NCBI GenBank assembly: GCA_020832235.1
Contig: JAFIEZ010000005.1
Span: forward strand, 151,374 to 215,373
DNA from: Bacteroidota bacterium
GTDB taxonomy: Bacteria; Bacteroidota; Rhodothermia; Balneolales; HLUCCA01
DNA length: 64,000 bases
Direction of reading: 5' to 3'
Made by a program: the position numbers and the translations under genes
The notes under the pieces: model-generated
The model's input: the letters and a program-made list of their open reading frames with translations, nothing else
Databases searched by the model: none
What the model was told of the DNA's origin: nothing
Shown: positions 56,766 through 62,474 of the stretch, piece by piece
Layout: every line of letters begins with the position of its first letter
Position numbering within the stretch: the stretch's first letter is position 1

Positions 56766-58133
56766 TTACACATACCCGTTCATCATTACGTGACGGTACA
56801 AGCGTTTGAGTCCGTGCACTTTGAAATCCCACCATAGGCGGGTTTCTTTCGTCGGCTGGAAAATCCACTCGTTAACGAGCTCTCCGTTGTAACCAAATTC
56901 GAACATCATGCATCTGCCGTATCGCGTGAGCAGAGGACAGCCCGAAACTCCGTCATAGGCATTGCTGGGCTCATAGCCCAAAATAGCATCAACGATGTTT
57001 CCTGCCACCACCGGCGCTTGTTTACGGATAGTTGCCGCAGTTTTGGGTGCGCCCGTTGCCGCGTTATCGCCAACACCGAATACATTCGGATATACATTAT
57101 GCTGGAGTGTAATACGATCTACATCCAGCTGACCACCGATACCCTCTCGTGTTAGTGGTCCTTCGCGCAATGGTTTAGGTGTACGGAATGTTGGCATCGG
57201 ATGGAGCAAATCGTAATGCTGGCGAATCTCACGCACGCTTTCATCAGGCATTCGCTCTTCAAAAATGGCCGTACGCGTTGAGATGTCTATTGCTTTGAGC
57301 ACTTGGTGGTAATGATTCTGAATTCCACGGGCTTCAATTAGCGGTCGAACTGCGTTGTCAACTTTGGGTACAATCGGGAACAGGGAGTTTTGTGGGGTAT
57401 GGAAGTGAACTTCCACCTGGTCACGCATGCCTGCACCCCTCCACAAGTCCTCGGTAAGCCAGGTTATTTTCTGGGGAGCGCCGCCGCATTTCACATAGCC
57501 GGTAGGGTAGGTAAACACGGCTTTTCCACCGCCGAAATTCTGAGCAAGATTCTTGAACTTTATGCCCGACTCTAGTTTGTAGACATTCGCTACGTAGGGA
57601 GTTTCCAGTGCTTCGGCTAGGTTTTCAACGCTGTTCATATTGGTTTCTACCCCAAGACCTACAACGAGATAGTCGTAATCGATTATATCGCCCTTGCGCG
57701 TGATAACCCTGTTTTGGTCGGGTTCGAACGCTTCCACATAATCTTTAACCCACTTCATGCCAGGCATGAACAGAGATTTCTGGTCAAAAATCACTTCCTC
57801 AGGTTTATATACACCTGCTGCGACAAGAGTGTAGCCGGGCTGGTAGTGATGCTCATCTTTGGGTTCTATAATGGTAATGTTGGCATCTGGCACGGCACGC
57901 ATTAGCCTTGCAGCCACAGTAAGTCCACCAATACTGCCACCGGCAACAACAATTTTGGCATTGCGGACTTTTGCCGCATCGGTTCTGGATAACTGCAGGC
58001 TTTTCCTGTAACCGTAAAAGCCACCTGTTCCTGCAAGCAACAGGCCTCCGCCACCCAGACCGATGTATTTTAAAGCATCACGCCGCGAAATTCCACCGGA
58101 GCCGGATTCAGTTTTTAAGTTATGATCTTCCAT
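56766..58133 (-). CDS. Tat-exported type II sulfide:quinone oxidoreductase
   Basis: A 455-residue flavoprotein with a Tat signal (SRRDALKYIGLGGGGLLLAG). FAD fold: KIVVAGGSIGGLTVAARLM, then VVGLGVETN and VFGVGDNAATGAPKTAATI. The two redox cysteines lie in GYVKCGGAPQKITWL and GVSGCPLLTRYGRC, matching the human mitochondrial SQOR type (VKCAGAPQKI, SCPLVT) rather than bacterial type I. It would oxidise sulfide to persulfide or zero-valent sulfur and reduce the quinone pool. A Tat signal is unusual for this class, which normally stays in the cytoplasm or binds the membrane without one. First gene of the sulfide island on the minus strand, going left. Confidence 0.92.
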   Translation of the reverse strand: MEDHNLKTESGSGGISRRDALKYIGLGGGGLLLAGTGGFYGYRKSLQLSRTDAAKVRNAKIVVAGGSIGGLTVAARLMRAVPDANITIIEPKDEHHYQPGYTLVAAGVYKPEEVIFDQKSLFMPGMKWVKDYVEAFEPDQNRVITRKGDIIDYDYLVVGLGVETNMNSVENLAEALETPYVANVYKLESGIKFKNLAQNFGGGKAVFTYPTGYVKCGGAPQKITWLTEDLWRGAGMRDQVEVHFHTPQNSLFPIVPKVDNAVRPLIEARGIQNHYHQVLKAIDISTRTAIFEERMPDESVREIRQHYDLLHPMPTFRTPKPLREGPLTREGIGGQLDVDRITLQHNVYPNVFGVGDNAATGAPKTAATIRKQAPVVAGNIVDAILGYEPSNAYDGVSGCPLLTRYGRCMMFEFGYNGELVNEWIFQPTKETRLWWDFKVHGLKRLYRHVMMNGYV

Positions 58134-58260
58134 CTGTCTTCTCCACTTTTGTAATTAGGTGCTTTATTTAGGTTGACGAGCTAAGACATGGCAATGCTTT
58201 TTAGAGTCGGAGTGTAAACAATACCATCTCAGAGATATTAATTAATAACGTAAATCAAAA

Positions 58261-58710
58261 TCAGAATGTAAACAACCGCACACGGGGATTACGCATAAAG
58301 GCGGCTACTTCAGGTGGTGCAGCTGCACGGATTCCTTCGAGTAAATCATCCTGTGTTGCATCTCTGTTTGGTAAGAAAATACCACAGACTTCAACAGTAG
58401 CGCCTCTTTCTATCAGACCCGTAAGTAGTTGCGAGGGACTCCTGTCGGCCGGTGCAAAGGCTGGTGACTGGTGATCTTTTAATGCAAGATTTCCCCCCTC
58501 GCTGCACAGCAGTACACGTACAGTTGCTCCCTGATTTGCCGATTGTGTGGCTAGAACCAAAGCCATCATCTGTGTTTCCGCATCACCGGTTGTGATGACA
58601 ACGAAGAGGGTGTCTTCTGTTTCCATATCTGTCGAAGCAGCTATCCCAGCGGTTCCGCCGAAAAGGACTAGCAAGGCTGTAAGCATTAAAAAGTTGGTGG
58701 TGTTTTTCAT
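58261..58710 (-). CDS. Exported DsrE-family sulfur-carrier-like protein
   Basis: A 149-residue protein with a signal peptide (MKNTTNFLMLTALLVLFGG, cleaved about residue 25). The DsrE fold shows as FVVITTGDAETQMMALVLA and VRVLLCSEGGNLALKD (Cys69), then ATVEVCGIFLPNRD (Cys109). The late Cys in EVCG is the persulfide-carrying position of many DsrE/F proteins. A periplasmic DsrE beside an exported SQR suggests that it takes the sulfane sulfur produced outside the cytoplasm. The partner is inferred from position only. Confidence 0.85.
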   Translation of the reverse strand: MKNTTNFLMLTALLVLFGGTAGIAASTDMETEDTLFVVITTGDAETQMMALVLATQSANQGATVRVLLCSEGGNLALKDHQSPAFAPADRSPSQLLTGLIERGATVEVCGIFLPNRDATQDDLLEGIRAAAPPEVAAFMRNPRVRLFTF

Positions 58711-58819
58711 TTAGGTATCTCTCAAATTGGGTTAAGGTGGGCTGATACAAACATCCTTTTTCGATGAGGTACTCAAAAAGATGGCTGTATCAGCGGATTA
58801 CATGTGTACGTGAATGTTA

Positions 58820-59359
58820 TCAGGCCTTGCCGGGCAAGGGCAGCACGGTTAAGGTCCACATCGCAAAGATGGTCAGAATAAGGGTTGCCATCATCACCGA
58901 AGGCCAGACTTTTTGTGCTGCTAGTGCAGGAGTAGTGAACGCGCCTCCCTTATACTTCACGTATAGTTCAATGCCTAGCAATGCCGTTGTTGCAGCAGCC
59001 GAAACCATACAGAACGGACAAATGGCGCCAATCACAAAGAGCTGCAGATATACAAATCCCAATGAGGCTACAAATCCGACTACAGTAATGGGGAGCAGCA
59101 GTTTTTCAACGGTTTCGCTTTTGGATGTCAGCCACATCGCACCCATGGTAATCATCAGCATGTAATACACAGCACCGATGGTCGCCAGGGGAATTGGTCC
59201 CATATAGGCCCATTTACTGGTAATTACCAGCATCGGACCACGAAGCGCAGCTCCTTCCGGAATAATGGGGATGGTCCAGAAGTGGATGGCTGTTAAAATA
59301 ATACTGGCTACCCAACCCAGCATGGCGATTACAATAAAGGTAATAATTGGTTTATTCAT
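58820..59359 (-). CDS. VKOR-like membrane protein lacking the loop cysteines
   Basis: A 179-residue protein with four to five helices and only two cysteines, CPFC at 114-117 in FVIGAICPFCMVSA, the quinone-side active site of vitamin K epoxide reductase proteins. The conserved Ser/Gly region is present (VITSKWAYMGPIPLATIG, Ser48), but the loop cysteine pair that normally precedes it and exchanges disulfides with a partner is absent, replaced by RGPMLV. It could pass electrons from its CxxC to quinone but not relay disulfides in the usual way. Found between DsrE and a flavoprotein, so a link to sulfide or persulfide chemistry is plausible. Confidence 0.85.
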   Translation of the reverse strand: MNKPIITFIVIAMLGWVASIILTAIHFWTIPIIPEGAALRGPMLVITSKWAYMGPIPLATIGAVYYMLMITMGAMWLTSKSETVEKLLLPITVVGFVASLGFVYLQLFVIGAICPFCMVSAAATTALLGIELYVKYKGGAFTTPALAAQKVWPSVMMATLILTIFAMWTLTVLPLPGKA

Positions 59360-59394
59360 GGCTTTCTGACTTTAATAATTATGATACTTTCGAT

Positions 59395-60552
59395 TTAAAA
59401 ATTCTTAATGAACCAAGATCTTTCCTGAAGCTGTTTCATCCACTGATTCATCACTCCAGCTTCCTTAATGTCAACTTCGTTGTTATAGAAATCTCCTCCA
59501 ACTTTACTAGCCTTACCATCGCCAAGATCCATAATGTAATTTCCTTCGGCTTTAAATAGCTTGTCGGCGCTTTTGCCGTAGATTTCTCGAACGATATTAT
59601 GAGCTACCACTTGTGCCTGATGTTGTGCAAATACACCGGCTTTCGGAAGCTGCGTACTCTCACCTAAGGTAATCGTTGTGATATCACCTATAGCATAAAC
59701 ATGATCAAAATCTGTTTTTAGGGTATCGCGGTTCACTTCAACCCAACCCGACTTTCCGGTTAATCCAGCTTGCTGAATTACGGTTGGACTCTCATGCTTT
59801 GGAGTAAAAGTCAGAAGGTCAGCAGTCAGAGATTTATCACCCTCAGCCGTGGTAAATACAAGCTCTTTCTCCCGAGTGGCCTTAAACTGATAACCGGGAA
59901 GATAATTGATCTCGCGGGCCTCCATGAGCTTGAGGATGTTCTCAGAAACCTCTTTTCCTGCAAATGGCATAGGCTCATTTTCGGGCACAACTACCGATAT
60001 TTGTGCTTTTTCCCGAATTCCTTTTTCACGAAGATAGTTGTCGATCAGCATGGCCGCTTCATAGGGAGCAACGGGCGACTTGTACGGAAGCGATGAAACC
60101 ATCACAACAACATGTCCGCCACGGAATGATTTGAGTGACTCATAAAACGTACCGGCACCATCTACGGTATAAAAGTTATGTCCATGTGCATCCAGCTGCT
60201 GCTCAATAACTTGCTGAGCTCCCAGCGAAATAACGATATGATTTCCTTTGTAGGTTTTACCACCGGAGGTTACCGTCAAATTTTTTGGATCTACGTTTTC
60301 AATGCTGCCGAAAATAAATTCAATGCCATCGCCAGATGTGGTGTTCAGTTCCCGTTCTACCTGCCATTCTTTACGTTTGCCTACCATCAGCCAGGTAAGA
60401 GAGGGGGAGAACGTACTTTTTTGCTCTTTTTCAAAGACCAGGATTTTCGCAACGATTGCGTCACCTTCATTACCAAGTTTAGCACTGAGCTCTCGTGCAG
60501 TTCTGAGTCCGCCGATTCCACCACCGAGTACGAGTATTGTTTGTTGTTCCAT
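59395..60552 (-). CDS. SQR-like FAD oxidoreductase without any cysteine
   Basis: The ATG at 60552 is used (a GTG at 60555 is adjacent). The 385-residue protein has FAD/NAD motifs ILVLGGGIGGLRTARELS, VISLGAQQV, VYAIGDITTITL and a typical SQR C-terminal FNNEVDIK-like end (FYNNEVDIKEAG). At the place where relatives carry a reactive Cys (PYKCPxAPYE), this protein reads LPYKSPVAPYEAAML, so Cys is Ser, and I see no cysteine anywhere in it. It therefore cannot form the persulfide intermediate. It may be an NADH:quinone-type enzyme or a regulatory paralogue. Confidence 0.88.
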   Translation of the reverse strand: MEQQTILVLGGGIGGLRTARELSAKLGNEGDAIVAKILVFEKEQKSTFSPSLTWLMVGKRKEWQVERELNTTSGDGIEFIFGSIENVDPKNLTVTSGGKTYKGNHIVISLGAQQVIEQQLDAHGHNFYTVDGAGTFYESLKSFRGGHVVVMVSSLPYKSPVAPYEAAMLIDNYLREKGIREKAQISVVVPENEPMPFAGKEVSENILKLMEAREINYLPGYQFKATREKELVFTTAEGDKSLTADLLTFTPKHESPTVIQQAGLTGKSGWVEVNRDTLKTDFDHVYAIGDITTITLGESTQLPKAGVFAQHQAQVVAHNIVREIYGKSADKLFKAEGNYIMDLGDGKASKVGGDFYNNEVDIKEAGVMNQWMKQLQERSWFIKNF

Positions 60553-60773
60553 CACGTTGTTTCCTTTTATTTTGTTGTTTGTCTGAAAAACCGGCGAGCG
60601 TTAAAGCGCCCTTTTTTCAGCTAAACAGTGTTAATGAGTGCGGATTTCATCCTGCATCCGCTTCGATATATCTGCTGTAATTTGAATCATATATTACTGT
60701 TTGATCTATTCGAGCTGCAGATTAGTGGTCTCGTGTACTACTGATTTTACACCTACTACTTTATGTTGCAAAC

Positions 60774-61442
60774 CTATGTTGCTACTGCTTCTAAAGCGAT
60801 CCCGAACGATTCACATTCAGGCACGCCGACATCCAGACGATATGCCTTGAATCCGCTTCGATTCAGCAGTTGTACCACATTGTCGGCCATCATACAAAGC
60901 GGTCCACGGCAATAGGCCACAATCTCTTTGTCCACCGGAAGCTCTTTGAGGTACTCACGAATTTCTGTGTATGGTATTGACACCGCGCCCTGAATGTGAC
61001 CTAAGCGGTATTCTTCGTCCGGACGCACATCCACCAATATGATATCATTGGTTTCAAGTTTCTGGATGAGTTCTTCGGCACAAATCACCTGTAAATCCTC
61101 GCGCTGCTGACGATACTCATCCACCAGTTTTTGAACTTCTTGATTTTGATTAAAACCCAATTTGCGCAGCGATTTCCACACGTCATACACGTGATCGTTA
61201 CTCAAGGCGTAAAAAATGTACTTCCCTTTGCGCTCAACATTTACAAGATTGGCTTTCTTGAGTACCTGCAAATGTTGCGAAGCATTGGCTAACGGCAAAT
61301 TGATATGCTCAGAAATATATTCTACAGGAACCGGTCCCTGAGCCAAAAGATCTAGAATCTCCAGTCGATGTGGATTTCCTAAGGCCTTCGTTACAGTTGC
61401 GATTTCTTTGTAAAGTGCGGTTTTAACTTCTCGTGAATTCAT
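60774..61442 (-). CDS. ArsR-family regulator fused to a rhodanese domain
   Basis: A 222-residue fusion: an ArsR winged helix (about 8-95, LANASQHLQVLKKANLVNVE as recognition region) and a rhodanese domain (about 120-215) with the loop YCRGPLC (Cys178 and Cys183). Persulfide sensors such as BigR/SqrR use cysteines in an ArsR fold; here the sensing Cys would lie in the rhodanese domain, with Cys121 also available. It probably reports sulfane sulfur and controls the sulfide island. Two matching inverted repeats upstream (61447-61510) suggest autoregulation. Confidence 0.9.
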   Translation of the reverse strand: MNSREVKTALYKEIATVTKALGNPHRLEILDLLAQGPVPVEYISEHINLPLANASQHLQVLKKANLVNVERKGKYIFYALSNDHVYDVWKSLRKLGFNQNQEVQKLVDEYRQQREDLQVICAEELIQKLETNDIILVDVRPDEEYRLGHIQGAVSIPYTEIREYLKELPVDKEIVAYCRGPLCMMADNVVQLLNRSGFKAYRLDVGVPECESFGIALEAVAT

Positions 61443-61446
61443 ATAT

Positions 61447-61510
61447 CATTCAATTAATTTATTGAATGAATAATACGAAGCCGGAGAATAACAATCAATA
61501 AAAATATTGA
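61447..61510. promoter_or_regulatory. Two equally spaced inverted repeats, probable ArsR operators
   Basis: CATTCAAT-TAATTT-ATTGAATG (61447-61468) and TCAAT-AAAAAT-ATTGA (61495-61510) share the core TCAAT-N6-ATTGA with the same 6-bp spacer. They lie 4 and 52 bp upstream of the ArsR-rhodanese start. ArsR/SmtB proteins typically bind such A/T-rich imperfect palindromes near the promoter. No further copy was found upstream of the other island genes. They could also serve the divergent doxX gene at 61754. Confidence 0.7.
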
Positions 61511-61753
61511 ATGTTTTTAGTAAGCTTTTTTTTTAACACTTCAGTTATAAGAGTTGACGAATGTATGACGAATCCCATTGCAGCGTTAGAAAGAAGCTAA
61601 GAGGGTACGAATAACCTGTGAAGTAAGTGTTTTAGAGTTACTTGAGGTGGCATTTTTTATTAACGCTGATTTTACCACCAAATTTAATTATACTAGCTAA
61701 ACTGACTGATCATCAACATTCTAGCTCACAACAACCAATCATAGGAAATCGAC

Positions 61754-62116
61754 ATGGAATATCTTGAAATTGCACTTAAACTGATTGTAGGCCTAAGTAT
61801 TTTGAACGTATGGTTGTTACGTGCCGGCAAATCTACCGAATGGCGTGGAGGGAATGCAACTAACATAGCAGAAGAATTTGAGGCCTATGGACTTCCAAAG
61901 TGGTTCATGTATGTTATCGGCACGCTGAAATCCATTCTGGCAGTTATGTTGATTGTTTCAATCTTGTACCCTCAGGTTGAAGCCGTCGCCGCTTACGGGA
62001 TCGCATTTCTTATGGTAGGAGCCGTGGCCATGCACGTTAAAATTGGTGATGAGCTAAAAAAGTCGTTTCCTGCATTTACCTTCCTGGTACTATCGCTTAT
62101 TATCGCACTTACCTGA
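61754..62116 (+). CDS. DoxX-family membrane protein
   Basis: A 120-residue protein with four helices (ALKLIVGLSILNVWLL, WFMYVIGTLKSILAVMLIV, AAYGIAFLMVGAVAMHVKIGDELKKSF). The DoxX family is broad; some members belong to thiosulfate:quinone or SOD-linked membrane complexes. Divergent from the ArsR-rhodanese gene and sharing its operator region, so it may be in the same regulon. Convergent with the next DoxX-like gene by 7 bp. Confidence 0.85.
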   Translation: MEYLEIALKLIVGLSILNVWLLRAGKSTEWRGGNATNIAEEFEAYGLPKWFMYVIGTLKSILAVMLIVSILYPQVEAVAAYGIAFLMVGAVAMHVKIGDELKKSFPAFTFLVLSLIIALT

Positions 62117-62123
62117 AAACCGG

Positions 62124-62474
62124 TTACAGAGCGCTGTAGAAAACGGTTGCAATCCAGCCGTTAAGAAAGAGGAAAATCAGCGATGGGGCGGACTGAAAAA
62201 ATCCGTCCTTGATTTTTATTCTTACGGCGAACGCAGATAGCATCATCAACGCCAGTCCAGAAGCCGCTAAAAAGCCCAATAAAGGGATGAAAAACCCAAC
62301 GACTACTCCTGCCGCCCCAAGCAGTTGAAGAACACCAGTAGCTATACGTTGAGGTTCCGTGAGCCCAAATCGTTTGAACTCCAGTTTCATCACCGGCGAA
62401 ATGAAGCATTGCAGTCCGTACAGCAGAAAAAACAATGCATTAATTGAAATGATGATCTGCGAAAGAGTTGACAA
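62124..62474 (-). CDS. DoxX-like membrane protein with a TTG start
   Basis: A 116-residue, four-helix protein (INALFFLLYGLQCF, TGVLQLLGAAGVVVGFFI, SGLALMMLSAFAVRIKIKDGF). The TTG at 62474 has AGGAA eight bases upstream, one of the better Shine-Dalgarno matches in the window, and no suitable ATG exists before the first helix. Paralogue of the neighbouring doxX by fold only; sequences are quite different. Confidence 0.8.
   Translation of the reverse strand: MSTLSQIIISINALFFLLYGLQCFISPVMKLEFKRFGLTEPQRIATGVLQLLGAAGVVVGFFIPLLGFLAASGLALMMLSAFAVRIKIKDGFFQSAPSLIFLFLNGWIATVFYSAL

Follow-up and report, generated by a model that had tools for sequence, protein, structure and literature searches.

The window analyzed here is a 64,000-nucleotide stretch of contig JAFIEZ010000005.1 (positions 151,374 to 215,373 of the forward strand, GenBank assembly GCA_020832235.1) from a bacterium of the order Balneolales that has relatives in soda lakes and a genome assembly of 3.38 Mb. 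On its minus strand lie, in this order, five genes encoding an ArsR-rhodanese regulator, a flavoprotein related to sulfide:quinone oxidoreductase (SQR) that we call FP2, a variant of VKOR, a DsrE-family protein and an SQOR, separated by gaps of 218, 35, 109 and 127 bases and preceded by two predicted operators (Table 1). Each of these genes is from a known superfamily and two of them, VKOR and FP2, fail a defining test of their own family: the VKOR lacks the loop cysteine pair and keeps only C114/C117 (CPFC), and FP2 has no cysteine at all. Both absences, already reported in a preliminary description of this DNA, prove real when the proteins are aligned with their families and are conserved across orthologues, which excludes sequencing error or contig decay. 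They exceed chance, since the loop cysteines are missing in every complete VKOR orthologue examined and the first catalytic position is a serine in 16 of 16 Balneolales FP2 proteins. We regard the gene content, the losses, the phylogeny, the operator and the match between operator and regulator as secure with very little doubt.

Table 1. Features of the operon and its neighbours in the window.
Feature	Position	Strand	Description
SQOR	56766..58133	-	455 aa, Tat-type (SRRDALKYIG), type-II-like, C216/C399/C408
DsrE-family protein	58261..58710	-	149 aa, signal-like N-terminus, C69/C109
Loop-cysteine-free VKOR variant	58820..59359	-	179 aa, five predicted transmembrane helices, one CPFC (codons 59009-59020)
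FP2, SQR-like FAD protein	59395..60555	-	386 aa, no signal peptide, no cysteine
ArsR-rhodanese regulator	60774..61442	-	222 aa, rhodanese Cx4C pair C178/C183
Operator O1, proximal palindrome CATTCAATA-AATT-AATTGAATG	61447..61468	-	predicted, 1 mismatch to consensus
Operator O2, distal palindrome CATTCAATA-TTTT-TATTGATTG	61492..61513	-	predicted, 1 mismatch to consensus
DoxX_2 protein, divergent neighbour	61754..62116	+	Pfam DoxX_2; membership unsupported
DoxX_2 protein, neighbour	62124..62474	-	Pfam DoxX_2; membership unsupported

The genes named in the preliminary description are all present where it placed them, and the Pfam domains concur: VKOR (1.1e-19), DsrE (PF02635, 3.2e-6), Rhodanese (5.1e-17) together with HTH_5/HTH_20 on the regulator, Pyr_redox_2 on both SQOR and FP2, FCSD_central also on FP2, and DoxX_2 twice. 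Its picture of a one-strand island flanked by two DoxX proteins stands for the five core genes and fails for the divergent DoxX gene, which is on the plus strand. Neither DoxX gene has a match in any related locus, so we treat both as neighbours rather than members of the operon.

The window SQOR matches the human enzyme (6mp5) over its full length (2.9e-69) and keeps both catalytic cysteines (VKC, SGCPL), in common with the type II SQOR whose Cys201 and Cys379 form a trisulfide (PMC12510033), but differs in its twin-arginine signal and in its operon with a VKOR and a cysteine-free SQR. The Tat-type N-terminus (RR, or RK in a few) and C216 are found in 14 of 14 orthologues and C399/C408 in 13, the remaining copy being truncated. 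DsrE, likewise, has its signal-like N-terminus and C69/C109 in 3 of 3 homologues. Export signals on SQOR and DsrE, as given in the preliminary description, are thus supported; DsrE is present in three loci only, so a fixed pairing with SQOR is not general.

Distribution and operator of the operon

The VKOR orthologue is present in 27 of 129 Balneolales genomes and lies beside SQOR and ArsR-rhodanese in the source genome and in two families, f2 and f3. The three genes occur together in 11 Balneolales loci (the window, L039, L041, L043, L044, L045, L049, L050, L051, L052 and L053), so the set is not restricted to the source contig; locus L047 is interrupted by a contig end. FP2 is part of seven of the 11 (the window, L041, L045, L050, L051, L052 and L053) and DsrE of two (the window and L051). 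The third DsrE locus overall is that of G104, a genome of the window's genus, in which a single open frame of 675 codons (L065:6260-8287) spans ArsR-rhodanese and FP2 ahead of DsrE, and in which a loop-free VKOR and a close SQOR were not found. In family f5 the VKOR is solitary and SQOR, if present, is elsewhere in the genome (L074, L075). ArsR-rhodanese and FP2 are adjacent in the absence of VKOR and SQOR in seven more loci (L067-L073), and FP2 stands alone in L066. The nearest partner of FP2 is therefore the regulator and not SQOR or VKOR, as these seven loci and the G104 frame indicate; ArsR-rhodanese and FP2 look like the older unit, to which some lineages have added VKOR and SQOR. As side observations, a Porin_O_P gene adjoins the operon in six loci (e.g., L051:4451-5464), and in L071:1073-6875 and L073:6226-12000 the ArsR-rhodanese and FP2 genes are followed by genes for an outer-membrane efflux protein, a HlyD-like fusion protein and a transporter-like protein of about 1074 residues. 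Full-text literature searches, partial in coverage and weak as evidence, returned no described system with this gene set, none joining ArsR-rhodanese, SQR and persulfide, and no account of a loop-free VKOR clade in haloalkaliphiles.

A scan of upstream regions found a shared palindrome of the ATTCAA-N8-TTGAAT type, searched for as the consensus CATTCAATA-N4-TATTGAATG with up to 3 mismatches. It occurs in 19 of 19 Balneolales loci with ArsR-rhodanese and in 0 of 17 loci without it. The motif lies upstream of the first operon gene, be this ArsR-rhodanese, as in the window, or FP2 (L045, L050, L051, L052 and L053), and the internal ArsR-rhodanese genes of the latter loci have no motif of their own; in L052 a second operator copy (5503) lies ahead of the porin gene. 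O1 lies 4 bp ahead of the ArsR-rhodanese start, contains the exact core and is spaced from O2 by 45 bp, a spacing identical in L070, L071, L072 and L073 (five loci in total); against these two copies, 0.03 matches per window are expected by chance. The scan of the operon's own 3.38-Mb genome is the unbiased test of exclusivity: apart from O1 and O2 it holds no match with fewer than 3 mismatches and just one with 3, roughly what the reversed control gives. In 1.5 Mb of comparison DNA, a set drawn from ArsR-rhodanese and related loci within which the exclusivity holds, the exact core is found at ArsR-rhodanese loci only (about 0.4 expected). Among these loci are some from other Bacteroidota (L140, L141, L142, L145 and L147) and one from Salipaludibacillus aurantiacus (Bacillota), where the divergent genes for ArsR-rhodanese and VKOR are separated by a perfect palindrome. 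A promoter-like pair (61498-61470) falls between and over O1 and O2; such pairs are no commoner than chance. Together the two tandem palindromes are the likely switch of the operon.

A VKOR clade without loop cysteines

VKOR and DsbB enzymes are described as needing two cysteine pairs. The CXXC pair at the quinone site (C114/C117) is invariant in all aligned sequences, and the loop pair, at the position of human Cys43/Cys51, is absent from the window protein and from all complete orthologues (25 from Balneolales, including the window, and 32 others). The loop serine S48, at the position of human Ser57, is invariant in 43 sequences, outgroup included. No VKOR homologue with loop cysteines was found at the same place in relatives; an ordinary paralogue with loop cysteines is encoded in the same genome (G000:C19:49074-49436; L057:5048-5479). 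The AlphaFold2 model of the variant has a pLDDT of 94.2, and VKOR structures, including that of Synechococcus VKOR (prob 1.00), are its only significant folds in Foldseek; phmmer against the PDB returned nothing at E<=1, the match being by fold search only. With Synechococcus VKOR (3kp9, 4nv5) the protein shares the PF07884 match, the helix bundle, the CXXC and the conserved serine, but it lacks the loop pair and the fused thioredoxin domain and has a fifth transmembrane helix that terminates in a conserved tail of the LPxP type. The charged segments would place CPFC on the outer face. A published VKOR phylogeny dropped sequences without the conserved residues (PMC4555120), so loop-free forms would have been excluded from it.

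The loop-free VKORs form one clade (support 100/97) comprising sequences from Bacillaceae, haloarchaea, Nitriliruptorales, Nesterenkonia and Balneolales, and hence spanning four phyla (Balneolota, Actinomycetota, haloarchaea and, with Bacillaceae, Bacillota) and two domains; the origin is single relative to the loop-bearing outgroup sampled, which is from Balneolales only and includes the L057 paralogue. The haloarchaeal VKORs of Natrialbaceae group with actinobacterial and Balneolales sequences, which suggests gene transfer between lineages. In the haloarchaeal class, 28 of 242 genomes have a match, and the retrieved proteins that cover the region all lack the loop cysteines. Named hosts include Natronorubrum thiooxidans, Natrarchaeobius chitinivorans, Natrialba hulunbeirensis, Anaerobacillus alkalilacustris and Alkalicoccus chagannorensis, and to these add many metagenome-assembled genomes (MAGs) with soda-lake sample codes. 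From names, taxa and sample codes we take nearly all hosts, found by a scan with motifs derived from Balneolales sequences, to be soda-lake or alkaline organisms, Nesterenkonia muleiensis and a few MAGs being unclear cases. In Natronorubrum, Natrialba magadii and Natronosalvus the gene is on a plasmid.

The preliminary description had tied the VKOR to this gene set, a tie that does not extend to one Balneolales family or to other phyla, where the gene is separate from the operon. On the plasmid of Natronorubrum daqingense (L163:1-12528) it lies among genes for YeeE/YedE, DsrE, TauE, an HTH regulator, TrxA, TrxR and MsrA, and partly similar sulfur sets surround it in haloarchaeal loci L105, L108, L110, L117, L121 and L122. 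The gene and TrxA-TrxR form a divergent arrangement in Natrialba magadii. For the solo VKORs of Bacillaceae and Nitriliruptoraceae a conserved neighbour was sought and not found. Single loci show a CsoR-family (Trns_repr_metal) regulator directly after a loop-free VKOR (L099:7638-7904) and, in a Nitriliruptoraceae MAG, another loop-free VKOR with a heliorhodopsin gene (PF18761, 6.6e-87; L103:8023-8802) some 2 kb away.

The haloarchaeal sulfur sets, that of Natronorubrum daqingense among them, and the divergent palindrome of Salipaludibacillus link the VKOR to sulfur, and we tentatively propose, at somewhat less than even chance, that the CPFC protein oxidises small sulfur species in a quinone-linked manner. 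It could instead be an alkaliphile's disulfide-bond-forming enzyme, its adjacency to SQOR being incidental or reflecting co-regulation against sulfide damage to disulfides. Since thiols are ionised at high external pH, CPFC could then oxidise exported proteins or a thioredoxin-like partner in the absence of a loop relay. The normal role of the VKOR and DsbB families in forming disulfides, the alkaline hosts (many of them with no SQOR nearby), the solitary state of the gene in most lineages and the thioredoxin genes beside it in several haloarchaea all fit such an enzyme. However, those thioredoxins have no signal sequence, the same genome already has a loop-bearing paralogue, and in two phyla the variant is repeatedly linked to sulfur genes and the operator of ArsR-rhodanese, so that we hold this alternative to be rather unlikely.

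The cysteine-free flavoprotein and its regulator

In FP2, Ser160 (codon 60076-60078) occupies the position of the first SQR catalytic cysteine and an asparagine that of the second. Across Balneolales the serine is encoded by TCA, TCC, TCG and TCT alike and the second position varies (N, K, E, S or D). The orthologues are 16 open frames of roughly 50-70% identity, with the KSPVAPYE segment nearly unchanged. The nearest homologues outside Balneolales retain both cysteines (LPYKCPGAPYE, GFCMLEAG), and most of them adjoin an ArsR-rhodanese or ArsR gene of their own. The 16 Balneolales proteins form one clade (100/100) whose sister, L139, is 52% identical and keeps both cysteines, indicating a single loss of the pair; FP2 is thus, judging from the tree, a descendant of a two-cysteine SQR. 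A distant relative (L148:1486-2676, genome G274) has lost both cysteines separately (EVKYPFAPFD, GFFFLETG). An apparent FP2 fusion in L150 was discarded, the N-terminal extension being spurious.

FP2 shares its fold and segment order with the flavoproteins of SQR and flavocytochrome c sulfide dehydrogenase (FCSD), but lacks their redox-active catalytic cysteine pair and has no signal peptide. The SQR fold is seen on a model of the G104 protein (pLDDT 83.5; 3hyv, 8dhk and 6oi6). As the trisulfide of human SQOR is reported to be essential for catalysis (PMC12510033), a cysteine-free SQR should not run the normal reaction alone. One alternative is that FP2 has lost sulfur handling and become a quinone-reducing dehydrogenase of the NDH-2 kind, a family with the same fold and no redox cysteines that Foldseek ranks after SQR. 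This we consider improbable: the best matches of FP2 are SQR and not NDH-2, the GxGxxG motif for NAD(P)H is absent from its second Rossmann fold (the segment reads VVVMVSSLPYKSPVAPYE), its second nucleotide segment is of the SQR/FCSD type (SSLPYKSPVAPYE), and its association with a sulfur regulator holds in almost every genome. That FP2 is a decaying, functionless pseudoenzyme, as the loss of both catalytic cysteines and the four operons without it might suggest, is very unlikely given 16 open and well-conserved orthologues, a serine held across all TCN codons through synonymous drift and the constancy of KSPVAPYE.

In the regulator, which has an ArsR winged helix, the rhodanese-domain cysteines C178 and C183 are invariant in 26 of 26 homologues, Salipaludibacillus included, and are the sole invariant pair, the ArsR half having no conserved cysteine. 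The ArsR-type sulfide/persulfide sensors SqrR, BigR and YgaV share the ArsR fold, the adjoining sulfide-oxidation genes and the palindromic operator; unlike in these, the sensing cysteines here appear to be located in the fused rhodanese domain (Cx4C), with no conserved cysteine pair in the ArsR half. By analogy with this family, sulfide or sulfane sulfur probably induces the operon. Rhodanese domains that are fused to CoA-disulfide/persulfide reductases match that of the regulator, a precedent for the coupling of a flavoprotein to a rhodanese. The partnership is the same in CoADR-Rhd, Npsr and CoA-persulfide reductases (3icr, 3nta, 8a56), but these enzymes use NAD(P)H and cysteines of their own, whereas here the rhodanese is on the repressor and the flavoprotein is cysteine-free. 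A Nitriliruptoraceae genome has two ArsR-rhodanese genes, and at L171:5122-7353 one of them diverges from the gene for a metallo-beta-lactamase/rhodanese protein of persulfide-dioxygenase type.

Proposed pathway and its implications

On balance we favor, by a modest degree, a quinone-linked operon for sulfide and sulfane sulfur under ArsR-rhodanese control. Sulfane sulfur would load the Cx4C of the regulator's rhodanese domain and free the repressor from DNA; SQOR, acting outside the cytoplasm, would oxidise HS- to persulfide or polysulfide, with quinone receiving the electrons; and DsrE would accept sulfane sulfur. Since the VKOR has no loop pair on which a thioredoxin-like partner could dock, it may use CPFC to react directly with small thiols, persulfides or polysulfides, and may reduce quinone. 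FP2, a descendant of a cysteine-bearing SQR that presumably adjoined such a regulator already, would no longer perform the SQR half-reaction alone. Among the roles left to it, the most likely is to act with the regulator, either with the rhodanese cysteines replacing those that were lost or with the flavin reporting redox state; that FP2 does work through the rhodanese regulator is a possibility we put forward with considerable reserve.

Several points weigh against such a pathway. Neither VKOR nor SQOR is present in seven Balneolales loci with ArsR-rhodanese and FP2, and FP2 is missing from four loci with ArsR-rhodanese, VKOR and SQOR, so no single pathway requires all of the genes. The VKOR is solitary in Balneolales family f5, Bacillaceae and Actinomycetota, and its role may therefore exceed sulfur. 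In FP2 both the catalytic cysteines and the GxGxxG of NAD(P)H enzymes are absent. The joint frame of G104 may be no fusion but two genes, still distinct, whose intervening stop codon was lost; in its AlphaFold2 model the rhodanese half is not confidently docked on the FAD half (pTM 0.59) and the 50-residue linker is predicted to be disordered. Finally, the chemistry and the induction are both inferred.

A bolder form of the quinone-linked proposal, which we consider unlikely, would make the loop-free VKOR an alkaline-lake persulfide/polysulfide oxidase, passed between Bacteria and haloarchaea, for which the abundance of polysulfide and thiolates at high pH makes a protein relay unnecessary. 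FP2 and ArsR-rhodanese would together make up a split SQR that has become a sensor, the repressor's rhodanese cysteines taking the place of the catalytic ones of the flavoenzyme.

The operator opens the regulon to direct tests, with one motif, one regulator and one operon in the genome. FP2 and its cysteine-bearing sister offer a useful comparison for what an SQR scaffold can do without cysteines, and a conserved VKOR clade that lacks one of its two pairs is a natural test of the purpose of the loop pair. The same clade is a candidate marker of alkaline sulfur chemistry.

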